From Streptomyces fungicidicus (lineage in GTDB: Bacteria; Actinomycetota; Actinomycetes; Streptomycetales; Streptomycetaceae), in the NCBI RefSeq assembly GCF_003665435.1, contig NZ_CP023408.1, forward strand, positions 806,001 to 870,000: a DNA stretch of 64,000 bases, in the 5' to 3' direction. Positions within the stretch are counted from its first letter, which is position 1. Every line of letters begins with the position of its first letter. The notes under the pieces were generated by a model. It ran no database searches. It was not told the DNA's origin and worked only from the letters and a program-made list of their open reading frames with translations. The translations under genes were made by a program, and so were the position numbers. Shown piece after piece: positions 1 to 49,904 of this stretch.

Positions 1-501
1 GCCGACGCGCCCGAGACCGAGACGGTCTACGTGCCGACCGGCGGCGGCGGACTCCTCGCAGGGATCTGCCTCGCGGCCGCGGACCACCCGGTCCGGATCG
101 TCGGCGTGGAGCCCGCCGACGCCGCCCGCTACGCCCGTTCCCTGGCCGCCGGACACCCGGTCCAGCTGCCGCCCTGCGCCACCGTCGCCGACGGCCTGCG
201 CGGCCAGCGGCCGGGACGCGTCCCCTACCCGATCATCCGTGACCGCGTCGACGACCTGATCGCCGTCGGCGACGAAGAGATCCTCGCCGCCGCCGCCCTG
301 CTGCGCGGCGGCGGCGTCGACGCCGAGCCCAGCGGAGCCGTCGCACTGGCCGGAGCCCTGCGCGCCGGCCGCCGCGAGCGGGCCGTGGCCGTCGTCTCCG
401 GCGGCAACACCCCCGCCCGCCTGCACGCCCTGCACCGTACGGACACCACCCGCACCACGGAAAGCACCGTGGCCACCACCACCGAGGAGCACACGTCATG
501 A
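1..501 (+). CDS. PLP-dependent threonine/serine dehydratase-like enzyme, C-terminal part
   Basis: The gene enters from the left edge and the reading frame is open from base 1, so the N-terminus and the PLP lysine are outside the window. The visible 166 residues begin just before a GGGGL loop (coded near 40-54), which in fold-type II PLP enzymes binds the cofactor phosphate. They continue through a typical IVGVEP segment and end with a VVSGGN motif. The family dehydrates serine, threonine or related beta-hydroxy amino acids. There is no C-terminal ACT regulatory domain, as in catabolic or pathway-specific members. The stop overlaps the start of the next gene (ATGA), so it is translationally coupled to a carrier protein. 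A role in tailoring an amino acid for a biosynthetic pathway is inference from that context. Confidence 0.75.
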   Translation, partial: ADAPETETVYVPTGGGGLLAGICLAAADHPVRIVGVEPADAARYARSLAAGHPVQLPPCATVADGLRGQRPGRVPYPIIRDRVDDLIAVGDEEILAAAALLRGGGVDAEPSGAVALAGALRAGRRERAVAVVSGGNTPARLHALHRTDTTRTTESTVATTTEEHTS

Positions 502-752
502 CCGAGAACGCCGCCACCGCCACCCGCACCGCCGACCTGCTCGTCGACATCTTCCGCGAGGTGCTCGGCCTGCCCGACCTGACCGAGGACACCGACTTCT
601 ACGAGGCGGGCGGCGACTCGCTCACCGCCTTCCAGATCACCGGCCGCCTCGAGGAGATCCTCGGCGCGCAGGTCCCGGTCTCCCTGGTCTTCGCCTACCC
701 CACGCCGCAGGACCTGGCCGAGGTCGTCGACACCGACTACGGCCGCCCCTGA
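498..752 (+). CDS. Stand-alone acyl/peptidyl carrier protein
   Basis: This is a protein of 84 residues with the length and pattern of a discrete carrier protein. The phosphopantetheine motif GGDSL is visible, with the attachment serine at residue 41, preceded by DTDFYEAG and followed by the helix that contacts partner enzymes. The ATG overlaps the stop of the upstream PLP enzyme and follows a GAGGAG ribosome site at 484-489. Carrier proteins hold acyl or aminoacyl groups as thioesters in NRPS, PKS or stand-alone pathways. No adenylation or ketosynthase gene is visible inside the window, so the loading enzyme is either upstream or unconventional. The next gene, 198 bases downstream, is LanB-like. 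Confidence 0.85.
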   Translation: MTENAATATRTADLLVDIFREVLGLPDLTEDTDFYEAGGDSLTAFQITGRLEEILGAQVPVSLVFAYPTPQDLAEVVDTDYGRP

Positions 753-875
753 CCCAGGGCCCCACCGGTCCCCGGCGCCGGCGCGACCCACCCGCACCAG
801 GACCGGGAGCCCGGTGCGGTCCCACCCCTCCACGCCCGCCGCCGGGCAGCCGTCACGCCCGCCCGGCGCAACCGC

Positions 876-928
876 GTCCCCTTGCCCGCCCGTTCCCCGC
901 CGTGTCCCCGTGCCCGCCCGTTCCCCGC
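876..928 (+). repeat. Two tandem 25-base repeats before the LanB-like gene
   Basis: A 25-base unit occurs at 876-900 and again at 904-928. The two copies differ at one base, and the shared core TGCCCGCCCGTTCCCCGC is identical. The copies lie in the untranslated stretch just upstream of the ribosome site of the LanB-like gene. A recent tandem duplication is the simplest explanation, and no function is evident. Confidence 0.6.
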
Positions 929-949
929 GCCCGCAAGGAGAGCCCCGCC

Positions 950-3232
950 ATGACCGAAGACCTCCAGCCGTCCCTCGGCCGCTGGCGCCTGTGGGAGCAG
1001 TTCGCCCTGCGCGGCCCCGGCTTCCCCGCCGACGGGGTGCTGCGGCTCGCCCCGTCCGGACTGGCCGAGGCCGCCGACAAGTTCGACACGGACGCCCCCC
1101 TCGACGGCTCCCGCTGGGAGGACTTCTCCCGCCTCTTCGCCGACGCCGCCGTGGAGAGCGCGCACACCCTCCAGGACATCGCCCGCACGCCGTCCTTCCG
1201 CCAGGCCGTGGCCTGGCAGAACCGCCCGGTGCTCACCTCGGGCATCGCGCCGTTCCTGCGCTGGACGCCGGGCGTGGACAAGCGCAGCAGCATGCCCCGC
1301 CAGCGCGAGGAGCTGGTCGCCCACTACTGGCAGCGGTTCTGCGTGAAGAACGACACCATCGGATTCTTCGGCCCCGTCGGCTGGGGCCGCTGGGACGCCG
1401 CGACCTCCGGTGCCGCCCTCGACACGGGCTCCGGACTGGTCGCCGAGTCCACCGTCTACTGGGCGAGCTGGGGCATCGACGCGCTCGCCAGGACGCTGGA
1501 CGCCGACCCCGGCCTGCGCGAGTGGATCGCTCCCCGCCGGGTGCCCTTCGTGACGGTGGACGGCGGCCGGGTCCGCGTGCCCGGCAGACGGCCGGTGACG
1601 GTTTCCGCCGACACCGCGGCCGTCCTCGCCCTCTGCGACGGCGTCCGCCCGGCACGGGCGATCACCGACGCCCTCCCGGACCACGACGTGCCCGCCGTAC
1701 TCGCCGACCTGGTCGCCCGGCGCTGGGTGACATGGCGCCTGGAGGTCCCCGCGGGCACGCACCCGGACCGGGACCTGCGGACCTGGCTGGAGACCGTCGG
1801 CGCACCCGGGCCGCGCCGGCGGGGGATCGCCGCGCTGGACCGGCTGGAGGAGGGGCGCGCGGCGGTGGCGGCCGCCCGCGACGTGGACGCCCTGGTCGGC
1901 GCGATGACCGATCTGGAGCGGGACTTCACCGAGCTGACCGACACCGCCGCCGTACGGGAGAAGTCCGCGTCGACCGCGCCGTGCCGCGCGCTCGTCTACC
2001 ACGACTCCCGCCGGGCCGCGACGGCCCGCCTCGGCCCCGAGGTGCTGGAGGCGCTGCACCCGTTGCGGCTCCTCATGGACAGCGCCGGATGGCTCACCTC
2101 ACGGCTCGCCGCCGCACTGCGGACCGGCATGCGCCCGGTGTACGAACGCCTCGCCGCCGAGGGCCCGGTCGACCTGGCCGCCTTCTGGTTCGCGTGCCTG
2201 CCGGTGCTGCACGGCCCCGTGCGCGCCACCGCCGGCGAACTCCAGGAGGAGTTCGCCGCCCGCTGGCGGCGGATCCTCTCGGTTCCCGCCGGCGCCCGCC
2301 GCGTGGACGTCCGCTCCGCGGACATCGAGGCCGCGGTGCGGGAGCGGTTCCCCGGCGCCGGCGGCTGGACGGCGGCCCGCTACCTCAGCCCCGACATCAT
2401 GATCGCCGCCGACGGCACCGAGGCGGTGGCCCGCGGCGACTTCACCCTCGTGCTCGGCGAACTCCACCTGGCCGCCAACACGCTGGGCGCCTCCCTCTTC
2501 ACCCACCAGCACCCCGACGTGGGCGAACTGATCCGTCTCACCGACCGGGACCACCCGGCCCCGCGCCTGCTGCCGCTGATCCCCAAGGAGCACCGGGCGC
2601 GGCTGTCCACCCGGGTCCGGCAGACGCTGATACGGCCCCAGGACTACCAGGTCGCCCTGACCGACTTCACCGCGGACCCCACCCGCCCGCGGGCCGTGCG
2701 CAGCGCCGACGCCGTCGTCGAGGAGCACGGCGGCGACCTCGTCGTCCGCCTCCCGGACGGTGCGACGTTCCCCGTCACGGACGTCTTCTCGCACGTCCTG
2801 ACCACGCTGTCGATGGACCTCTTCCGCCTCCTGCCGCAGGACGACCACACACCCCGGGTCACGCTGGACCGGCTGGTGGTGGCCCGGGAGACCTGGCGGC
2901 TGCCGGCCGCCGGCGCCGACTTCGCAGACGAGAAGGACGAGGCCCGCCGCTTCGTCCGCGCCCGCCGCTGGCGCGCCCGACTCGGCCTGCCCCGCTACGT
3001 CTTCGTCGTCTCACCGACCGAGTCCCGGCCGTTCTACGTCGACTTCGACAGCCCCGTGTACATCACCATCCTCGCCAAGGCGCTGCGCCGGCTGGCCCGC
3101 GGGGACCAGCGGGGCATGGTCACCATCACGGAGATGCTGCCCACCCCCGAGCAGAGCTGGCTCCTCGACGACGAAGGACGGCGCTACACCTCGGAACTCC
3201 GCTTCGTCGCGTTCGACACGGAAGCGGGCTGA
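950..3232 (+). CDS. Lantibiotic dehydratase (LanB) family protein without elimination domain
   Basis: This 760-residue protein matches the N-terminal LanB domain. Family landmarks include WEQFALRGPGFP near the start, KNDTIGFFGPVGWG, the CRALVYHDSRR segment and YLSPDIMIAADG followed by LVLGELHLAANTL. Full LanB enzymes are about 1000 residues. The shorter length suggests only the aminoacyl-tRNA-dependent half, as in split LanBs or the peptide aminoacyl-tRNA ligases (PEARLs). The chosen ATG follows AAGGAG at 935-940; an in-frame GTG at 902 is less likely. No precursor peptide gene was recognised nearby. The immediate neighbours are a carrier protein and a PLP enzyme, so the acceptor might be the carrier rather than a ribosomal peptide; that is inference. 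Confidence 0.8.
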   Translation: MTEDLQPSLGRWRLWEQFALRGPGFPADGVLRLAPSGLAEAADKFDTDAPLDGSRWEDFSRLFADAAVESAHTLQDIARTPSFRQAVAWQNRPVLTSGIAPFLRWTPGVDKRSSMPRQREELVAHYWQRFCVKNDTIGFFGPVGWGRWDAATSGAALDTGSGLVAESTVYWASWGIDALARTLDADPGLREWIAPRRVPFVTVDGGRVRVPGRRPVTVSADTAAVLALCDGVRPARAITDALPDHDVPAVLADLVARRWVTWRLEVPAGTHPDRDLRTWLETVGAPGPRRRGIAALDRLEEGRAAVAAARDVDALVGAMTDLERDFTELTDTAAVREKSASTAPCRALVYHDSRRAATARLGPEVLEALHPLRLLMDSAGWLTSRLAAALRTGMRPVYERLAAEGPVDLAAFWFACLPVLHGPVRATAGELQEEFAARWRRILSVPAGARRVDVRSADIEAAVRERFPGAGGWTAARYLSPDIMIAADGTEAVARGDFTLVLGELHLAANTLGASLFTHQHPDVGELIRLTDRDHPAPRLLPLIPKEHRARLSTRVRQTLIRPQDYQVALTDFTADPTRPRAVRSADAVVEEHGGDLVVRLPDGATFPVTDVFSHVLTTLSMDLFRLLPQDDHTPRVTLDRLVVARETWRLPAAGADFADEKDEARRFVRARRWRARLGLPRYVFVVSPTESRPFYVDFDSPVYITILAKALRRLARGDQRGMVTITEMLPTPEQSWLLDDEGRRYTSELRFVAFDTEAG

Positions 3233-30965: not shown

Positions 30966-32999
30966 TCATCCCGCTGCCGCGCGCTCCTTGGACGGTGTCC
31001 GGCGTGTTGTCGGGGTGTCCAGGTGGACGACCACGGTGGTGTAGAAGCGGTGCACGGCGTCGTCAACGCTGCGGATGAAGCCGGTCTCGGCGTTGCCGCG
31101 GCCGCTCCCCATGCTCTTGAGCAGGGACAGGAGGAACCCGGTGATCCTGGCGTTGTCCTTGGGCAGCAGGTCCGCCGGTTCGGGTCGCAACCGCTCCAGC
31201 GTCCCGCGCGGACCTCCGCTTTCGCCGTCGACGAGGGTCTCGATGTGCAGGTCCGCCGGTGCCTCGGCCAGGAGCCGGACGAGCCGCTTTGCCCGGCTCA
31301 GCGGGTAGCCCTGCTCGGGGGCGGGGACGGCGATGCCGGTGCGCAGTTTGCCCGTGCGCAGGTCGGCGCCGACGGTCAGGACGCCGGGGGTGCCGTCGAT
31401 GCGCAGCTCCGCCTGAAGCCGCCCGTCGAGGCAGAGCTGATCGGCCAGGCGGGCCCGGCGCTCCTTGGGGTCCGTTCCGCGCTTGGCGCGCTGGACGGGC
31501 AGCACCTTCTGTCCGAGTTCGCCGCCCAGCCTGAGGCAGACCTGGCGGATGAGCCGTTCCCAGTTCTCGACCACCTCCAGCGCCCGGGCGTCGCCCTGAC
31601 AGAGGGTTTCGTCGTCGATGCCGTTGCGGACGGGGACCCAGGCGGGGCCCATGTTCTGGAAGCCGTGGCAGCCGGAGTTCTCGTGCTGCAGGTAGTGCAG
31701 CAGTTCCTGCAGGAGCCAGGCGTGCGCGGCGTTGCCCACTCCCTCATGCCTGATCAGCAGCTGTGCCTGGTGGGCGACTTCGGCCCAGGACAGGTGCCAG
31801 AGGGCCACCTTGTGCTTCCGCCGCTTGTCGATCTTGACGTCGACGAGCGGGCTGCCCTCCAGCGCGACGTCGTTCGTCAGCGTGATCACGGCCTCGTAGC
31901 CGCGGCGCGCGGCGATGTCCATGTACGCCTGCACCTGGTCGGCCTTGAGTACGTTGCCGTTGGTCTTCGTCTCGACCAGCGCGGTCCACAACTTGCCGGC
32001 CCGCTCCACGCGAATCACCCCGTCCGGGCGACGCGGAGTGTCACCGTGAGGCAGGGAGACCTCGGTGAACGTCTCCATACGACCCGCCGGAGCCCCGAAC
32101 CCCGCGGTGAGCCTCCTGCTGAACTCCGGCACCTGCGCCATCACCGACAGCAACACCGAGGTGGCACGCATCTCGCGATCCCGGTCGCTTTTGAGCGCCG
32201 ACACCGGGAAAAGCCTGGCCTGCCGCCAGGAGTCGTTCTCCGCCAAGGTCTTCTTGACCGTCCTGGGAAGGGTGACCTTCTTCTTGGCGGTGCGAGGACG
32301 GGTGGCCGGCTTCCTCGGCTCGCCGGCCTCCGCCTCAGGCCGGCGAGGAGCAGGGACGGCCTCCAGCGGCACCTGCCCGGTCGGCTCCCCGGCCGGCGCG
32401 CGATCCGCCGCATCCGCCTGCTCGTCGGCCGCGTCCCCGTCGAGCGCGGCTTCCGCCTCCGTGGCCGCGTCGTCCTCGATGTCGACCCCGAAGTCCGTCG
32501 CCAACCCCGCGAGACCGGTCTCGTAGCCCTGCCCGACGGCTCGGAACTTCCATCCCTCACCCCGCCGGTAGAGCTCGCCGAAGATGACCGCCGTCACCGA
32601 GCCGGCGTCGTCGACGGCGAACCGCAGGAGGCTCTCGCCGGCCGCGTCGGCCAGCGTGATCCTCACGTCCTCCAGTTCACCGAAACGAGCTTCGCCGTAC
32701 CTGCTCGCGGCGACGACGATCCGGTCGATCCCGGCCGGCACCGCGGTGAGGTCGAAGCTGATCCGGTCCTCACTGCCGTCCGCCGTCGGCGTCTTCCCCA
32801 GAAGCTGCACGCTTCCGTCAGCGGCCACCGGATGGTTGTAGAAGTAGAAGTCGCCGTCGCTGCGCACCTTGCCGTTCGCGTCCAGCAGTAGGACCGACAC
32901 ATCCGCGTCGCCCTCGCCGGTAGGGCTGACCCAGCCCAGACTGACGATCACCGAACCGATGTCGTCGCTCAGGTCCGCCAGGGCTACATTCGAACCCAT
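30966..32999 (-). CDS. TerD domain protein fused to a PD-(D/E)xK nuclease-like domain
   Basis: This 677-residue protein has an N-terminal TerD domain (about 1-172) including GWVSPTGEGDADVSVLLLDA, DGDFYFYN and FGELYRRGEGWKFRAVGQGY, the acidic calcium-binding type. A 60-residue Ala/Glu/Pro/Lys-rich linker follows. The C-terminal two thirds contains PDGVI (Pro 325-Asp 326) and, 17 residues on, VETK (Glu 343, Lys 345), the core of a PD-(D/E)xK nuclease fold, then QVQAYMDIAARRGYEAVITLT. TerD proteins belong to stress and defence-linked Ter systems. The fusion suggests DNA cleavage or binding during stress, which is inference. ATG 32999 has GGAA upstream. Confidence 0.75.
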   Translation of the reverse strand: MGSNVALADLSDDIGSVIVSLGWVSPTGEGDADVSVLLLDANGKVRSDGDFYFYNHPVAADGSVQLLGKTPTADGSEDRISFDLTAVPAGIDRIVVAASRYGEARFGELEDVRITLADAAGESLLRFAVDDAGSVTAVIFGELYRRGEGWKFRAVGQGYETGLAGLATDFGVDIEDDAATEAEAALDGDAADEQADAADRAPAGEPTGQVPLEAVPAPRRPEAEAGEPRKPATRPRTAKKKVTLPRTVKKTLAENDSWRQARLFPVSALKSDRDREMRATSVLLSVMAQVPEFSRRLTAGFGAPAGRMETFTEVSLPHGDTPRRPDGVIRVERAGKLWTALVETKTNGNVLKADQVQAYMDIAARRGYEAVITLTNDVALEGSPLVDVKIDKRRKHKVALWHLSWAEVAHQAQLLIRHEGVGNAAHAWLLQELLHYLQHENSGCHGFQNMGPAWVPVRNGIDDETLCQGDARALEVVENWERLIRQVCLRLGGELGQKVLPVQRAKRGTDPKERRARLADQLCLDGRLQAELRIDGTPGVLTVGADLRTGKLRTGIAVPAPEQGYPLSRAKRLVRLLAEAPADLHIETLVDGESGGPRGTLERLRPEPADLLPKDNARITGFLLSLLKSMGSGRGNAETGFIRSVDDAVHRFYTTVVVHLDTPTTRRTPSKERAAAG

Positions 33000-33355
33000 G
33001 ATCATTTCCTGCACAAAGCCCCCCAACGGCGCACCCTGGGCATGCGGGAGAACCCGCCCCATCTGTCTCATGCGCGACACAAGATGACGAGTCGCGCGGA
33101 GAAGACTGTAATACGCACCGAGCTCGCTCGTGGAGGTTCTGTGAAGCGGATACGTAACAGCGGTGTCCCGGCGGCACGTCACGGCGCAGTCCGGACGGCT
33201 CAGGTCTTCCGTTCTCCACCGTGGCCCCGGCGGTCCTCGGGTGCTCGTCGTCTTCCGTCGGCTGGGTCGAGTCCGCTGCTGGAGCGCGTGGGCAAGACGC
33301 GCCAGACGTCGACAGAGCGCCGATTCGGGCGCGGCGCGTGCCGTGCCGGCCGGGA
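33000..33355. other. Intergenic region upstream of the TerD fusion
   Basis: These 356 bases lie between the HU-like gene's stop and the TerD gene's start, both on the minus strand. The reading frame of the TerD gene stays open through it, but codon bias and composition look non-coding, and a clear GGAA site supports the downstream start. I see no terminator, RNA gene or repeat. A promoter for the TerD gene presumably lies here. Confidence 0.4.
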
Positions 33356-33613
33356 TCAGCCGACGTTGCCGTTGACGTACTCGTTCAGCGCCTGGCCCGG
33401 CCGGAGGATGACCACGGAGTCGTCGAGCTGGAAGGCACCGAACCCGATGACCGTGACGCTCTCGCCCCTCTTGAGGCCCTCGGCGATCACCCCGGGGCGC
33501 TCCACCGTGCCGAAGAGCGCGTCGATCACCCGCCCGACCTGATCCGGCGCCAACTCCGCACCTGTCCCTGCCATTTTGCGTGCGGCGGCTTCGGCCAAGG
33601 CGTTCTTGTCCAT
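33356..33613 (-). CDS. Shortened HU-family DNA-binding protein
   Basis: This 85-residue HU-like protein has MDKNALAEAAARKMAGTGAE followed by QVGRVIDALFGTV (helical dimer core) and RGESVTVIGFGAF, the well-known turn before the beta arm. Normal HU then has the RNPRTG arm that wraps DNA. Here the rest is only QLDDSVVILRPGQALNEYVN and four residues, so the arm sequence is absent. AAGGAAG is ideally spaced before the ATG. It may form a dimer with weak or no DNA wrapping, or act on other HU proteins. The TerD fusion gene lies downstream in the same direction. Confidence 0.75.
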   Translation of the reverse strand: MDKNALAEAAARKMAGTGAELAPDQVGRVIDALFGTVERPGVIAEGLKRGESVTVIGFGAFQLDDSVVILRPGQALNEYVNGNVG

Positions 33614-33848
33614 GACTTCCTTTCTGAAGCAGCGAGAAGGCGTCTCCATCAGAGCGCGCTCCGCCGTTTGCTGGGGTGACAGCGGCAACCAAGCGCAGAG
33701 CGGCCCCTCGGGTCTGAGAGCACGACGCCGAGGGGAACGGGACGACCGGCGGGTGGTCATGCCCAGTGGCTCGCCTTGCGTCGAGCAATTCGTCGTGCTC
33801 CACCAGGGATTCACTTGAATTTCCGCTCACGCCGCCGGTCGAGGGCGG

Positions 33849-36192: not shown

Positions 36193-38448
36193 TCAGTCCT
36201 GGGACCGCGCGGAACTGGTCAAACTCTCCCGCAACCAGTCGTGGCGGAACTGGTAGGCCGGCCCCGCCGCTCTCAGGAGGTTGCGGCGCCGGGCGTCCTC
36301 GAGAAAGGACACCAGACGCACCGGGGTGCCCTCACTGATGGAGAGCTGGACGGCGGAGAGAGCGGCGGCGACGCCCAGATTTCCGACCGGCCCGGCGAAG
36401 AGGCAGGCCCACAGCCCGGCAATGCCACCGACCACGACGCCCTTCCAGACGCCGTACTCGTAGGCCGCGAGCGAGCCGGCGAACACCGCGATGGCGACTC
36501 CCGTCAGGAGACCGAGTGCCAGCCTCAGCCCGATGTGGTGCCGCCACACGGCCTGCGGACTGACCGCCCGGGTTTCCGTCACAGGGCGCCGGCTGAGACG
36601 GTCCCTGAGTTCGTCGTACTGGGGTCCTGAACCGGTGCCGAGGATGGTCCCGGCCACCAGTTTGTAGCCGCGGCTGCTCACCAGCGTCGTGCCGAATCCG
36701 AGCGGAAGTGCGGCGAGATAGGCAAGCCAGGCAGGCAACGGGTCGCTCCCGGGCAGTTGGAAAGCCAACCAGGACGTGGTTCCCGACAACAGCCAGATGA
36801 AGGCGCCCAAGGCCACGGCGCCGGGCGGGAAGATGTCGCGCCACCCGGCGCTGGGGAGGGGCTGCTCGTCGCTGAGCTCCGCATGACGCTGGGCGGCGAG
36901 TAAGCCTCCGACGATTGCGCAGGGGGGCGCGAGCAGACACGCCCACACCGGGCCGGTCGTCCCCCACAGCGTGAAGAGGCCGCTCACTCCGTACAGCAGA
37001 CCGATGACGGCCCCGACGAGGATCACCCTGGGCCGGCGGTCCGTCCAGGTGGGGATGTCCCACCAGCGCAGCTCACGGTCTGCCTGGTTCCGGGTGACTT
37101 GCGTGGCGAGGTAGCGCAGCGTCCGTTCCGCGGTCTCGGATGAGTACCGTGGGCGCGGGCGTCCCCGTCTCGGGGTGTACGCGGCCGAGACCAACTGGTC
37201 CAGGAGGTGGTCCTGGAGTGACCGGGTGCTGGGAAAGCGGACGGTGTCCAGCAGTTCGTCCACAGGACGTCCACCGGTGTCGGCGTAGATGTCCCGGACC
37301 AGGCTTACCGCCAGCGGACTGGCCAACGTCTCGGTCACCGCACTGTCGGGTTCGTCCTGAAGTCTGCGGTTGAGTTCCTGCCAGCCGGGCGGGGCCGGAG
37401 TCGGCAGGGCATTCATCAGATAGGCGCTGGCGTCCTTGGCGCACACCGGCTGGATCTCCAGCGCCGCGGCTCCGCTCAGCCGCTGCCGCCTGCCAGTGAG
37501 AGCCCTGGCCCGCGAAACCACCACAACACGGAAGCTGGCCAACTCCAACGCGCCCAACATGGCGGCGCGTTGCTTCCCACCGACCTCGTCGAGCCCGTCC
37601 AGGAACAGCGAGATCCGCCCGTCCGCCAGCAGCTCCCTCGCCCGTACGACCCCTCCTCTGTTCCGGAAAAGGGTGTACTCGCGGGAGATCCGGCCTGCCG
37701 CCCAGGCGGTCACATCCTCCTCATCTGGATCCCAGCCAAAGGGCGTGAGCATCACCGGCACGGGGATATGGGGCCTTACCTCGGGCGCCGCCTTCGCACG
37801 GTGCTTGAGCGCCTCCCGGATCAGCAGCACCGCGGCAGACGTCTTGCCCACCGCCGGCTCACCCACGAGCAGCAGTCGACCGGAAGCCAACCCACCGTAG
37901 ACCGCGTGCAGTGCGGGCAGAGCTCCGCCCCGGTGCAGAATGTCGCGGGTGACTGCGGCGCACCCGGGCAGTGGGGCGAAACGGGCGCGGCCGTCGTCGG
38001 CGATCGCCCCTTCGATCCGGCCCGCCACTCTGCGTTTGGTCACCTGCCATCGCACCGGAAGGGGCGCAGGCTCCAAGAGCCGCCGCAGCGTGGCCTCCTC
38101 CTCCCACTCCTTGCGCACGGCCTTGGCCAGCTCATCGGCGGCGACGTCCAGCGGGGGGCGTGGGGCGGCGGACTGTTGCACCTGGATGAACTTGCGGATC
38201 AACAGGTACCCGGTATTGGCCAAGCCGCCGCTGTGGGCAGTGGCGTTCCCGGTACGGCTCACGTGCACCGAGCCTGCGGGCCCTGAGTCAGGTCCGGCAT
38301 AGTCGGGTACCGCGGTGGCGTCTTCGCGGGGGCCGGCATCGCAGACTTCAGGCGCGGCTGCCTTCGCCCCTTGGCTTTCGGCTGCGGCCTCGGAGAAGAC
38401 ACCAGGGGCGCCGTCCGGGGTACGGCGCCGACGAGGCCATCTCACCAT
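36193..38448 (-). CDS. NACHT-type STAND NTPase with C-terminal membrane domain
   Basis: This 751-residue NLR-like ATPase has a low-complexity N-terminus with motif VHVSRTGNATAHSGGLANTG at 61-80. Walker A is GEPAVGKT at 196-203, Walker B is SLFLDGLDEV at 280-289 with the acidic pair of NACHT domains, and a VVVSRARALTG sensor segment follows. From about 475 to 700 there are some six to eight hydrophobic helices in place of a repeat sensor domain. The end is FRHDWLRESL. One TTA codon (Leu 516, 36901-36903) suggests bldA-dependent expression. The upstream gene encodes a small membrane protein with two copies of the same N-terminal motif. Defence or signalling is inference. Confidence 0.85.
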   Translation of the reverse strand: MVRWPRRRRTPDGAPGVFSEAAAESQGAKAAAPEVCDAGPREDATAVPDYAGPDSGPAGSVHVSRTGNATAHSGGLANTGYLLIRKFIQVQQSAAPRPPLDVAADELAKAVRKEWEEEATLRRLLEPAPLPVRWQVTKRRVAGRIEGAIADDGRARFAPLPGCAAVTRDILHRGGALPALHAVYGGLASGRLLLVGEPAVGKTSAAVLLIREALKHRAKAAPEVRPHIPVPVMLTPFGWDPDEEDVTAWAAGRISREYTLFRNRGGVVRARELLADGRISLFLDGLDEVGGKQRAAMLGALELASFRVVVVSRARALTGRRQRLSGAAALEIQPVCAKDASAYLMNALPTPAPPGWQELNRRLQDEPDSAVTETLASPLAVSLVRDIYADTGGRPVDELLDTVRFPSTRSLQDHLLDQLVSAAYTPRRGRPRPRYSSETAERTLRYLATQVTRNQADRELRWWDIPTWTDRRPRVILVGAVIGLLYGVSGLFTLWGTTGPVWACLLAPPCAIVGGLLAAQRHAELSDEQPLPSAGWRDIFPPGAVALGAFIWLLSGTTSWLAFQLPGSDPLPAWLAYLAALPLGFGTTLVSSRGYKLVAGTILGTGSGPQYDELRDRLSRRPVTETRAVSPQAVWRHHIGLRLALGLLTGVAIAVFAGSLAAYEYGVWKGVVVGGIAGLWACLFAGPVGNLGVAAALSAVQLSISEGTPVRLVSFLEDARRRNLLRAAGPAYQFRHDWLRESLTSSARSQD

Positions 38449-38489
38449 CGGCCAGAACCTCCCGCATGCTGTGGCCTTCGAGGGCCCGG

Positions 38490-38855
38490 TCAGCTGAAGT
38501 CGATACCCGAATTCGCGTTACTGCCGGTACCGTCCGAGGTGGCGTCGCCGGTTCGCTCCACCCGAATCGACCCATTCCCGGCTTCCCGCGGGCGTCGCAC
38601 GCCGGATGACGCCCGGCCTCCACCGGTCGCCTCGGCCCTCCCCGTATCGGTCACGACAATCCCGCCTTGCGAGTGGGAGGTTGAGGACTGCAACAATGCC
38701 CAGACCAGGGCCGCGACGCCAGTGGCGCCCTGGACCGACGCGGCAACCAACTGGCCGGTATCCGGATTGTCCAGCAGCCAGAAGAACGGCGTCGATGCCG
38801 TCAGCACGACCGCGACCACGATGACCGTGATCTTCCTGCCTCGCGACATGGTCAC
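38490..38855 (-). CDS. Small membrane protein with two signalling-motif copies
   Basis: This 121-residue protein starts with GTG after GGGAGGG. It has two hydrophobic helices (about 8-28 and 34-56) with a short loop, then a soluble tail with two copies of a Gly/Asn/Thr-rich motif. Copy A is at 66-86 (VVTDTGRAEATGGGRASSGV) and copy B at 97-118 (RVERTGDATSDGTGSNANSG). The neighbouring NACHT gene carries a third copy. The stop is 41 bases from the NACHT start, so they are co-transcribed. By analogy with amyloid-type motif pairs of bacterial NLR systems, homotypic motif contact could link the two. This is unproven. Confidence 0.65.
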   Translation of the reverse strand: MTMSRGRKITVIVVAVVLTASTPFFWLLDNPDTGQLVAASVQGATGVAALVWALLQSSTSHSQGGIVVTDTGRAEATGGGRASSGVRRPREAGNGSIRVERTGDATSDGTGSNANSGIDFS

Positions 38856-39124: not shown

Positions 39125-39165
39125 TGAGACAACCGGGCGCCGGAGGCCTGCCGGGGCGGTGACCG

Positions 39166-39480
39166 TCAGGCCTGACGGGGCCTGTTGAGTGCGCGGATGG
39201 CGACGTCGTATGCCATGCCCGCGATCGCGAGGGTGACGGCCGGCCAGACCACGCTGGGCTGGATGTGTCCGGTCGCGATCGCGGCGGTCAGTCCGCCACC
39301 GCCACCGACGGCCGTGATCGTGGGGATTGCTGGCAGCTTGGGGGCGGGTACCTCGACACGCCACACACGGCGGCGTCCACCCTCTGCGGTCGTGCTGTCG
39401 CCGATGGCAGCACCTTGCTGTGGGAGATTGCCGGCGTTCGGGCGCTGAGGGGTCCGATCCGTGCGACGCTGGGAAGGCAT
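39166..39480 (-). CDS. Small membrane protein of unknown function
   Basis: This 104-residue protein has a basic, polar N-terminus (SQRRTDRTPQRPN) and one or two hydrophobic helices near residues 55-95, with a GGGGGLTAA turn between them. Ends with NRPRQA. The ATG at 39480 follows GGAG by six bases, which supports it over the in-frame ATG at 39492. No family recognised. It lies in the run of minus-strand genes between the sigma-factor/carrier pair and the NACHT gene. Confidence 0.55.
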   Translation of the reverse strand: MPSQRRTDRTPQRPNAGNLPQQGAAIGDSTTAEGGRRRVWRVEVPAPKLPAIPTITAVGGGGGLTAAIATGHIQPSVVWPAVTLAIAGMAYDVAIRALNRPRQA

Positions 39481-39701
39481 GTAACGCTCCATGGCTGAGT
39501 ACTGGCCGTGCTCGGGTTGTATGGGGCTTTGCGCAGCGGGTGGGTGCTTGGCGCGCCTAAGAACCCACAGCGCGCCCACCCCTTTACTCTGGGGTTCTCA
39601 TCGTCGTCTCCTTCGAGCCACGTGGCTCCTTGTGCCGGAACTCGCGCACTGGGTCCTTGGTTCCGGACCACAGAGACTGCTCGGCGCGCAGCCATTCACC
39701 G

Positions 39702-40025
39702 TCATCTCTCTCTCGTGGTGAGTTGCTGGACGCGGGCGGCTCGGCTGTGTGCTGGTTCGTCTGCGGACTCCATGTGGATCGACGCTTGCTGGATACGGAC
39801 TCGGACCCGGCGCAGACGCGATCTGTCGAGGTACGGCCATGCGATGGCCAGCCTCGCCGTACCGATGGCAGCGCCGACGACGGCGTACACGCCGGCTCCC
39901 GTGGGAGTGCCGAATCCCGTGGAGAGCGCGCTCCAGACACCGACGAGAATCACGATGGCCGCATAGCCGCCCAGCTGGTGATGTGCCATCATGCGATCCA
40001 CAGCCGTCTGATGCAGGTCAGCCAC
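39702..40025 (-). CDS. Small two-helix membrane protein of unknown function
   Basis: This 107-residue product starts at GTG (VADLHQTAVDRMMAHHQLGG). Two hydrophobic helices occupy about 19-40 and 45-63, separated by a GTPTGAG turn. The tail is basic, RSRLRRVRVRIQQ, and probably cytoplasmic. A GAGGAG lies about 11 bases before the GTG, somewhat far. No family recognised. It follows the carrier-protein gene in the same direction after 133 bases. Confidence 0.55.
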   Translation of the reverse strand: MADLHQTAVDRMMAHHQLGGYAAIVILVGVWSALSTGFGTPTGAGVYAVVGAAIGTARLAIAWPYLDRSRLRRVRVRIQQASIHMESADEPAHSRAARVQQLTTRER

Positions 40026-40158
40026 CGCGTATACAGGGCTCCTCTTCCGGCGTCAGCCGTGTACTCCGCCATCGCCTCGTACAGTTCCGCGCGACGCCGG
40101 CGAGAGTGATCCCTACGCCGCGCGTCAGGGCGATGGGCAGGGATCGCCTTCGTACGGC

Positions 40159-40809
40159 TCAACTCCAGGGTTTTGCGCTCGCTCTCCCGGTGCCGTCCTT
40201 GGCTCCTGGAACGGCCTGCGAGGCGGCGGCAGCCGCAGAATCCTCCTTGGCCGGAGGAGCCAACAGAGCTGCGATTTTGGCCGGCGTGCGCTCGTCGAAC
40301 AGCGCGTGAACCCCGAACTCGAAGCCCAGTGCGGACCGGAGGCGACTGAGGAGGCGGATCGCCAGAATGGAATCGCCACCGAGAGCGAAGAAGTCGTCGT
40401 CGATACCGACCTCAGGCAGCTCCAGGACTTCTGCGAAAGCTGTGCAGAGGATTTTCTCCAGTGGAGTCGTCGGCGCGCGGCCACGCGTCCTTGCGGCGGG
40501 CCTGAAATCCGAGAGGGCAGAGTCCGTGCGGTTGGGTTGAACGTCGCCCCTTGCTGGCAGGGTGTTCTTGACCTTGAGGACCGCCTTGATGTCGTCAGCC
40601 ATCTGGAGCACGAGGTCCAGGCGGGGGGTGAGGTCGAGACCGTCAGGGACTTCCCAGAGCGACTCGTCCGAAAGGATCGGATGGCTTCCGTCCGCCGCGG
40701 CTCCTTCAATGAGCGCCTGCAGGCTGTCACCTGCTTCGGTCCACTCGTAGATGTGGGGGTTATCAGCGATTAGTCCGTCAGTTCTGCCGGGCTTGTCGTT
40801 CTCGGTCAT
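40159..40809 (-). CDS. Carrier protein with extra N-terminal domain, paired with a sigma factor
   Basis: This 216-residue protein has a clear peptidyl/acyl carrier domain at about 112-185: TPLEKILCTAFAEVLELP, then VGIDDDFFALGGDSILAIRL with the phosphopantetheine serine at residue 147, and HALFDERTPAKIAALL. The first 100 residues (SLQALIEGAAADGSHPILSD and on) are not a known NRPS domain to me. The end is an Ala/Lys-rich tail. The ATG overlaps the stop of the sigma-factor gene (ATGA), so the pair is translationally coupled. No NRPS or PKS enzyme is nearby. A stand-alone carrier linked to a sigma factor is unusual. Confidence 0.78.
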   Translation of the reverse strand: MTENDKPGRTDGLIADNPHIYEWTEAGDSLQALIEGAAADGSHPILSDESLWEVPDGLDLTPRLDLVLQMADDIKAVLKVKNTLPARGDVQPNRTDSALSDFRPAARTRGRAPTTPLEKILCTAFAEVLELPEVGIDDDFFALGGDSILAIRLLSRLRSALGFEFGVHALFDERTPAKIAALLAPPAKEDSAAAAASQAVPGAKDGTGRASAKPWS

Positions 40810-41405
40810 TTGATGTCCCCCTCTGCACTTTCCGTCTTCTGGTCCCTTGGAACGAGGTCAGGAGCCAGCTCCCGGAGCATTCGTTGGGCTTTCACCTTGC
40901 CCCTGCTGCTGTGTTGCCGTTCGGTGCCCCACTTGACGTCCTTCAACGTCGCGCGTTCCCGGGGGTTGTATCCATCGGCCTCCAGGCCGATCGAGGCTCT
41001 GTACACAGGCGCCATCGCCTGTAACGACTCGATGATGCGGCGAGTGTTCTCGTCGGACACCACCTTCTGATGTGGAAGTTCGGAAGGGGAGGTGACCAGC
41101 TCAGAGGCAGAGTCGTCGATGTCGGGCCGCAAGCCGAGCCTGGCGAGCAGAGCCCGGCCGTTCATCTGCTTTCTGATCAACGTGCAAGCCATGTTGAGGA
41201 CCGTTTGGCGAAAGAACGCCTCCGGATGTCTCAACCTTCCCCGCTGCGCCGCCTCCAGGACCACGGCCATGGCTGCGTGAGTCACATCGCGCGCATCCTC
41301 GTATCCCAGTTTCAGCCGCGAGCAAGCGGCGATGCCCGACTTCCAGTTGCCCAGGTAGAACTCCGAGAACAGGGTCGGATCAGCGAGCGGATGTGTATCG
41401 GACAC
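40806..41405 (-). CDS. Divergent sigma-70 family (ECF-like) sigma factor
   Basis: This 199-residue protein with the size of an ECF sigma factor has SRLKLGYEDARDVTHAAMAV followed by HPEAFFRQTVLNMACTLIRK, matching sigma region 2. The C-terminal half, a region 4 candidate, has a poorly conserved helix-turn-helix (YNPRERATLKDVKWGTERQH). An anti-sigma gene is not adjacent. The GTG start at 41405 has only a weak upstream purine stretch. The stop overlaps the start of the carrier-protein gene. It could control its own operon or a remote biosynthetic locus, which I cannot tell from the sequence. Confidence 0.7.
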   Translation of the reverse strand: MSDTHPLADPTLFSEFYLGNWKSGIAACSRLKLGYEDARDVTHAAMAVVLEAAQRGRLRHPEAFFRQTVLNMACTLIRKQMNGRALLARLGLRPDIDDSASELVTSPSELPHQKVVSDENTRRIIESLQAMAPVYRASIGLEADGYNPRERATLKDVKWGTERQHSSRGKVKAQRMLRELAPDLVPRDQKTESAEGDIK

Positions 41406-45786: not shown

Positions 45787-46530
45787 TCAAGCGGTGGGAC
45801 GGGTGCCGGGGGTGTGGCCGAAGGCGCGGCGGAATACGTTGATGAAAGTGCTGGCGGATGACCATCCGCAACGGTGGGCGACCGCGGTGACGGGGATGTC
45901 ATCGGCCAGGAGCAACAGGGCGTGGTGGAGCCTGACCTGGGTGCGCCACTGGGGGTAAGTGAGACCGAGGTCGTCGCGGAGGCGGCGGGACAGAGTGCGG
46001 GCGCTGGCACCGATCTGACGTCCGAGGTCTTCGAGAGAACGGTTGTCGGCCGGGTCGCCGCACAGGATGTCGTGCAGTTCGCGGATCAGGGGGTCGGTGG
46101 GGACCGGCAGATGCAAGGGCTGCTCGGGGGAGATGGTGAGCTGGTCGAGCATGACGGCTCGCAGGCGAAGGTGGGGTGGGCTGTCGTTGTCGGGGTCGTG
46201 GGTGTAGGCGACGATGAGTTCGCGCAGCAGGGGACTGACGGCGAGGACGGCGGGCTTGTCGAGACCGAGGGGGTTGTCCGTGACGGGCAGGCCGACGAGG
46301 TGGAGGTCGAGTTCGCCGTGGGCCTGGTGCTGGTGGATGGTACCGGCGGGGATCCAGATCGCGCGGGTGGCGGGGGCGACCCATGAGCCGGCGTCCGTGG
46401 TCACCGCGATGGTGCCTTTGCTGGCGTAGGCGATCTGGTGGTCGTCGTGGCGGTGCGCGTCGATCTCGCCGCCGGACGCCAGGCGCTGGGTCCGGGTCGG
46501 CGCGACGGGTGTGTGGCGGATTTTCGGCAT
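45787..46530 (-). CDS. AraC family transcriptional regulator
   Basis: This 247-residue regulator has an N-terminal cupin (HRHDDHQIAYASKGTIAVTT, IWIPAGTIHQHQAHG) and a C-terminal AraC domain with two helix-turn-helix motifs (LEDLGRQIGASARTLSRRLR; VTAVAHRCGWSSASTFINVF, then RRAFGHTPG). The divergent MFS gene lies only 46 bases away, so this protein probably activates that transporter in response to a small molecule. Confidence 0.9.
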   Translation of the reverse strand: MPKIRHTPVAPTRTQRLASGGEIDAHRHDDHQIAYASKGTIAVTTDAGSWVAPATRAIWIPAGTIHQHQAHGELDLHLVGLPVTDNPLGLDKPAVLAVSPLLRELIVAYTHDPDNDSPPHLRLRAVMLDQLTISPEQPLHLPVPTDPLIRELHDILCGDPADNRSLEDLGRQIGASARTLSRRLRDDLGLTYPQWRTQVRLHHALLLLADDIPVTAVAHRCGWSSASTFINVFRRAFGHTPGTRPTA

Positions 46531-49274: not shown

Positions 49275-49904
49275 TCAGCCCTCGCCGGAGAAATCTTGGT
49301 CGAAACCGGGGGCCTCCGCAGCGATAGTGGTGCTCGGCCCGTGGCCCGTGTGCACGACCGTGTCGAGCGGCAGAGTGAGCAACCGTCGCCGGATCGAGTC
49401 CACGATCGTCGAGCGGTCGGAGAACGAGCGGCCAGTGGCCCCGGGGCCACCCGAGAAGAGGGTGTCACCGGTGAACACCACCCCGAGGGCGGGCGCGTAC
49501 AAGCACACCGCGCCGGGCGCGTGGCCCGGTGTGTGCAGCACCTGCAGTTCGATGCCCGCGATCTCGACGGCCCGCCCGTCGGCCAGTTCACCGTCCGGCT
49601 CGCGGCCGGGGTGGGTCAGCTCCCACACGGGCAGGTCGTCGGGGTGCAGCAGGATCGGGGCGCCGGTCCTCGCGGACAGCTTCGGGGCCTCGCGCACATG
49701 GTCGTCGTGCGCATGCGTGCACACTATGGCCCTCAGTGTGCGTTCGCCGACGGCCTCGGCGATCGCGTCCGCGTCGTGCGGGGCGTCGATGACGACCACC
49801 TCGGTGTCGTCGCCGACGATCCAGACGTTGTTGTCGACCTCCCACGTCCCGCCGTCCAGGCTGAACGTGCCGGAGGTGACGAGGTGTTCGATGCGGGCCC
49901 CCAT
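49275..49904 (-). CDS. MBL fold hydrolase paired with mycothiol dehydrogenase
   Basis: This 209-residue metallo-beta-lactamase fold protein has VCTHAHDDHVREA as the HxHxDH motif, LHTPGHAPGAVC and FTGDTLF with further ligands, and VVHTGHGPST near the end. These are the motifs of glyoxalase-II-type thioester hydrolases. The start shares one base with the stop of the mycothiol dehydrogenase (TGATG). By context it probably hydrolyses S-formylmycothiol to formate and mycothiol. That is inference. Confidence 0.88.
   Translation of the reverse strand: MGARIEHLVTSGTFSLDGGTWEVDNNVWIVGDDTEVVVIDAPHDADAIAEAVGERTLRAIVCTHAHDDHVREAPKLSARTGAPILLHPDDLPVWELTHPGREPDGELADGRAVEIAGIELQVLHTPGHAPGAVCLYAPALGVVFTGDTLFSGGPGATGRSFSDRSTIVDSIRRRLLTLPLDTVVHTGHGPSTTIAAEAPGFDQDFSGEG

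Follow-up and report, generated by a model that had tools for sequence, protein, structure and literature searches.

Why should a carrier protein of the kind found in non-ribosomal peptide synthetases (NRPS) be encoded together with a sigma factor? The question is raised by a locus on the minus strand of a 64,000-nucleotide stretch of the Streptomyces fungicidicus genome (contig NZ_CP023408.1, positions 806,001 to 870,000), which we refer to here as the window. The TGA stop of an ORF for an ECF-type sigma factor overlaps the ATG of the next ORF, whose product, referred to here as the partner, bears a phosphopantetheine carrier domain (PCP); a purine-rich GAGGGGG stretch lies just ahead of the overlap (Table 1). 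Behind the partner follow, on the same strand, a 107-residue ORF, a small Gly-rich membrane protein whose true start is probably at MPSQRRT, a gap of 310 bases, a 121-residue protein and a NACHT-like protein. Ahead of the sigma gene and divergent from it are an ORF with no Pfam match and then a GH43 enzyme. Further off, 30966-33830 on the minus strand encodes a protein of 954 residues, of which 276-447 form a TerD domain, and the left end of the window (31-3232, plus strand) holds the edge of a biosynthetic cluster, with a PLP-dependent enzyme fragment, a free-standing carrier (498-752) and the N-terminal domain of a lantibiotic dehydratase (902-3232).

Table 1. Features of the locus and of its neighbours, in window coordinates
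Feature	Position	Strand	Basis or remark
ECF-type sigma factor, 199 aa, GTG start	40806..41405	-	Profile of four relatives; AlphaFold2 model
Partner protein with carrier domain, 216 aa	40159..40809	-	ATGA overlap with sigma gene
Partner residues 1-100, no known domain; LWE at residue 51	40510..40809	-	
PCP (phosphopantetheine carrier) domain, residues about 111-185	40255..40479	-	PF00550; PDB PCP domains
Codon of Ser147, predicted modification site	40371-40369	-	GGDSI motif
107-aa ORF, one hydrophobic segment	39702..40025	-	Between partner and small membrane protein
Small Gly-rich membrane protein, 137 residues	39166..39579	-	Kept in four of four loci
Small membrane protein, 121 residues	38490-38855	-	
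NACHT-like protein, 751 residues	36193-38448	-	Weak AAA/STAND matches; annotated relatives

Identity of the two overlapping proteins

Is the first protein a sigma factor? Taken alone, it scores below the curated cut-offs (18.1 bits against 42.9 for TIGR02937, 13.5 against 24 for Pfam Sigma70_r2), which are a naming convention and not a defining feature of the sigma fold. A profile built from it and three relatives matches solved ECF sigma factors in the PDB over both regions, with a best E of 2.4e-12 (8z6g) and an E of 2.5e-9 for the sigma-E structure 1or7, and TIGR02937 is matched by all four members (E 0.0016 for the window's, 1.7e-8 for the best). The AlphaFold2 model, made from two sequences, has seven helices arranged in a sigma-2-like and a sigma-4-like domain (pLDDT 66). 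With this model as Foldseek query, ECF sigma factors rank first, at an E of 1.1e-3 at best and none below 1e-3; whole-chain TM-scores are low, and region 4 alone gives a TMt of about 0.75. The identification is weak from the single sequence but firm with the relatives, as profile and model have it, and by sequence the protein is a divergent member of the ECF group (group 4) that lies below the curated cut-offs.

The carrier is recognised without such help. PF00550 (PP-binding) matches residues 121-183 of the partner with 61.2 bits against a cut-off of 20.8, PCP domains in the PDB match it with E values down to 1.2e-21, and the serine motif, FFALGGDSI, predicts Ser147 as the attachment site. 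Carrier core, serine motif and reading frame are all intact. The closest carriers in the same genome are 55% identical and sit in very long frames, as in NRPS synthetases. Similarity to a solved NRPS module (5u89) begins at residue 82, so the N-terminal part is joined to NRPS-like sequence around residues 82-110. The phosphopantetheinyl transferase family has five matches in the genome, which would make phosphopantetheine on Ser147 possible.

What precedes the carrier is harder to place. Pfam and NCBIfam have no entry that matches residues 1-100. The other 248 genomes of the family gave no match either, nor did viral contigs at E<=1e-3, and the one plasmid match is at chance level (E 0.5). The absence of Cys from this part makes a zinc motif impossible, and the structure model of the partner (pLDDT 38) is too low in confidence for a four-helix domain, as at the N-terminus of class I anti-sigma factors, to be read from it. 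The preliminary description of this DNA had spoken of a divergent ECF-like sigma factor overlapping, by ATGA, a carrier gene with an N-terminal domain of unknown kind. Coordinates, strands and overlap were all confirmed, as was the carrier domain, and the four-sequence profile together with the two-domain model bears out the sigma factor.

The module in related genomes

Do related loci tell us what the partner does? Three were found, in Streptomyces netropsis (G142), in the genome G500 and on a linear plasmid of Streptomyces sp. NBC_00015, and together with the window they make up a module of three closely spaced genes in the same order: sigma factor, overlapping partner and small Gly-rich membrane protein. 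The start-stop overlap of sigma and partner is present at all four (ATGA in the window and G500, TGATG in G142 and NBC_00015), and the 107-residue ORF between partner and small membrane protein occurs in the window alone. The small membrane protein is 55% identical to its G142 homologue (E 5.9e-24), and 0 of 1000 shuffles reached its alignment score with each of the three relatives. This protein is found in other genomes too (L043, L045-L049, L054). A family of about 300 residues lies near it, mostly just upstream, in 7 of 13 loci outside the sigma module; the family model was built from five of the seven, two looking degraded or frameshifted, and has no Pfam or PDB match.

How common is the module? 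With the window sigma factor as query, the best non-self match among 249 family genomes is G142 (E 1.9e-11), and 197 of the 249 match at E<=1e-3, mostly weakly. Two of 392 genus genomes match at E<=1e-8, namely its own and G500 (3.4e-14), and one of 71 relatives, again its own, at E<=1e-10; the three samples overlap. Only one of 72,556 plasmids, the NBC_00015 linear plasmid, was retrieved (E 2e-7). Across 84,980 species genomes, a pattern scan with the single sigma sequence gave no close relative, and one with the alignment gave S. netropsis only; a partner profile matched 2 of the 392 genus genomes (G142 and G500), and in viral contigs relatives of the sigma module were not found. A wider sigma profile matches 338 of 394 family genomes at E<=1e-12, the best beyond G142 and G000 being 1.8e-18; considered as module members, these matches were taken for other ECF sigma factors after two of them, L066 and L067, had been read. 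L066 itself (278-2067, minus strand, in G009) has a divergent sigma gene (1489-2067) against a long ORF of approximate start, in which repeats are rich in Asp, Arg and Ala and HEAFT.K.E.ALD.EAGLRDIL occurs twice; this is possibly a further variant of sigma factor and overlapping partner. That the module exists, as a rare one in Streptomyces-type genomes, is well supported, and we have little doubt of it. Seven proteins gave no match in PADLOC, and no convincing ECF-type promoter motif common to the four sigma genes was found upstream of them. GGTCACA, followed at differing distance by GAGTG.CACG, stands upstream of the sigma gene in L040 and L062 and was not seen by eye at the other two loci.

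The partners of G142, G500 and NBC_00015 have 201-263 residues with hydrophobic segments after residue ~135, and the Pfam scan found a carrier domain in none of them. The window partner has no hydrophobic segment or membrane helix; it appears to have the carrier where its relatives have a membrane anchor. The other three have an N-terminal region in common (SDSE.PRQ ... LWE ... LR..ET.ALEE..AP), in which LWE and LR..ET.ALEE are invariant. Does the window partner belong with them? Its LWE is at residue 51, against 60, 60 and 56 in the relatives, and in shuffles an LWE falls within residues 41-71 with a probability of 0.004. Residues 1 to 72 align with the G500 partner at a Smith-Waterman score that 13 of 2000 shuffles reached; in a second test 35 of 3000 shuffles did so, as did 1 of 115 natural N-termini used as controls. 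Against G142 and NBC_00015, 1030 and 591 of 2000 shuffles, respectively, score as high. When the three scores are summed, 4 of the 115 controls equal the window partner, and so do 217 of 3000 shuffles. Neither profile test is significant: hmmsearch with the partner profile gives E 0.034 with one target, and hhalign, which does align the LWE stretch, gives a probability of 1%. Taken together, these comparisons are mixed, and no more than suggestive of homology between the window N-terminal part and those of the other partners. No known anti-sigma family in Pfam matches any of the four. The 107-residue ORF was considered as a split-off membrane half of the partner, an idea left unsupported by shuffle tests against the C-terminal parts (1617, 104 and 126 of 2000 shuffles for G142, NBC_00015 and G500).

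A possible mechanism and its alternatives

How might such a module work? Our main reading, to which we give a probability of roughly 0.4, is that the module of sigma factor and candidate anti-sigma factor is present here in a lineage-specific variant, in which the C-terminal domain of the latter has been exchanged for a carrier that acts as an input. The overlapping stop and start would couple translation of the two proteins, which would probably be made in a fixed ratio, like sigma and anti-sigma factors. The N-terminal ~100 residues of the partner would bind the sigma factor and keep it inactive, and the membrane-helix part present in the relatives would have been swapped for an NRPS-derived carrier. 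With a carrier in place of helices the partner would be soluble and could release the sigma factor under a cytoplasmic cue, candidates for which are attachment of the phosphopantetheine arm, its load or the docking of an enzyme. The order of the genes, their overlaps, the sigma fold, the intact carrier and its absence from the relatives are observed; we infer three elements of this scheme, namely the homology of the N-terminal parts, their binding to the sigma factor and the carrier as input. That the partners are anti-sigma factors at all we consider an even bet. More specific versions are doubtful: it seems unlikely that the carrier is the sensor of an anti-sigma factor, a dedicated PCP that directly frees or retains the sigma factor according to how it is loaded or acylated, and the same holds for the corollary that a covalent thioester intermediate, or the cell's capacity for phosphopantetheinylation, is read out as transcription. 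We are just as hesitant about a generally modular partner, in which membrane or carrier domains are exchanged behind one sigma-binding part.

Could the carrier be idle? A chance recombination may have fused an NRPS fragment to the partner, to be kept for solubility or a protein contact, or to drift, with the serine serving no purpose. The carrier version of the module is a single instance in one genome, the only species returned by the pattern scan, S. netropsis, lacks it, and the N-terminal part went unmatched in the family genomes, all of which would fit such an origin. So would the base composition: the stretch 39161-41405 (64.6% G+C) is a low-G+C island, and no more than 1.8% of the 2.3-kb stretches of the window lie lower. 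A reading frame and carrier core preserved down to the serine motif speak against it, however, as do the coding-like codons of the partner gene, with a G+C of 0.73 at third against 0.50 at second positions, and we rate this explanation as rather improbable.

Is the carrier instead a free-standing PCP that receives its load from an A domain encoded far away and serves a biosynthetic pathway in trans, while the co-expressed sigma factor controls that pathway or itself? It is of NRPS type and resembles the PCPs of this genome's large synthetases (large frames with several carriers lie outside the window, at C2:777-788 kb), and the genome has 80 carrier-domain matches besides those to the transferase family. 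The surroundings argue otherwise. The nearest other carrier domain (537-725, beside the lantibiotic dehydratase) is about 40 kb away, which leaves an assembly-line role unsupported, and the neighbouring ORFs scanned over 30966-50989 (short ORFs, 45787-46530 and 49275-49904 left out) hold no adenylation or condensation domain. The related pairs do without a carrier, and the ~100 residues that precede the carrier in the window match nothing in NRPS. A role in trans is in our view unlikely.

These results also bear on what the preliminary description had made of the locus. Its remark that no biosynthetic enzymes lie nearby holds for assembly-line enzymes among the scanned ORFs; the cluster with its own carrier and lantibiotic dehydratase is ~37 kb off, where the window begins. 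It had thought that a regulatory reading would fall if homologous pairs always lay inside NRPS clusters; in the stretches read, the three relatives have no NRPS genes alongside. The overlapping pair that it had suggested looking for in other genomes does recur, at these three loci, but never with a carrier, and its proposed link between carrier and sigma factor is partly supported: the carrier gene sits in a recurrent partner slot, away from NRPS genes, which favours a regulatory link over assembly-line work, but the link is not conserved.

That the pair belongs to the adjacent NACHT/amyloid-motif unit (36193-38855), as a regulated immunity operon with a sigma output, is very unlikely, as common strand and consecutive genes are set against the intervening 310 bases, a relative on a Streptomyces sp. 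S501 plasmid with a small partner and no annotated sigma or carrier gene in the 18 kb listed, and the three sigma relatives, beside which no NACHT gene was recognised in the stretches read. The NACHT-like protein and its 121-residue neighbour look like a separate unit. They share the motif GSVHVSRTGNATAHSGG.ANTG / GSIRVERTGDATSDGTGSNANSG (2 of 3000 shuffles), which we take to be amyloid-like. The S501 protein (L095), the closest NACHT-like relative among plasmid records at 50% identity, shares another motif with its own small partner (0 of 3000 shuffles), as if motif and effector had been exchanged together. A survey in eLife of the conflict systems of multicellular prokaryotes (PMC7159879) does not use the word sigma in its main text.

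Comparison with known systems

What would be new here? The anti-sigma factors known so far respond to envelope stress, to redox state or to partner proteins. An anti-sigma factor that reads a covalently loaded carrier would connect thiotemplate metabolism with transcription, and no diffusible ligand would be needed. Even with an idle carrier, the three-gene module may be an undescribed unit of sigma control; by titles and abstract openings, none of the papers found in searches on carrier proteins with ECF or anti-sigma factors describes it.

Type II or free-standing NRPS carrier proteins exist as short proteins outside synthetases, and the window partner is likewise a short carrier protein; it differs from them in having no dedicated enzymes nearby and an extra N-terminus of ~100 residues. 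Carrier proteins are also known to feed metabolic state into regulation. Acyl-ACP acts as a corepressor with FabT. Examples are the contact of ACP with SpoT in E. coli (PMC3340395) and FabT with acyl-ACP (PMC13046290); there the carrier is the general ACP of fatty-acid synthesis, whereas here it is a dedicated PCP made with the sigma factor.

On the side of the sigma factor the closest likeness is to class I anti-sigma factors. Their domains have a mean length of 101 residues; membrane-bound proteins make up ~65% of them and soluble ones ~35%, and there is little sequence in common between the classes (PMC7406223). As a rule, an anti-sigma factor is transcribed together with its sigma factor, which it retains until a signal brings about release (PMC3426412). 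An overlapping partner with an N-terminus of ~100 residues followed by membrane helices fits the class I scheme, in which the gene overlaps or adjoins that of the sigma factor, as the window partner does through its ATGA. The arrangement recalls RpoE/RseA and SigK/RskA (PMC7406223), where a sigma gene is likewise followed by an overlapping partner with such an N-terminus, and the three relatives have the helices as well. It departs from them in a partner N-terminus outside the known anti-sigma families and, in the window, in a carrier with no membrane helix. ECF41 offers another parallel, as an ECF sigma factor tied to a non-classical regulatory part (PMC3426412); in ECF41 the sigma factor itself bears that domain as a fusion, whereas here the regulatory part is encoded by a separate, overlapping gene and is a carrier domain.
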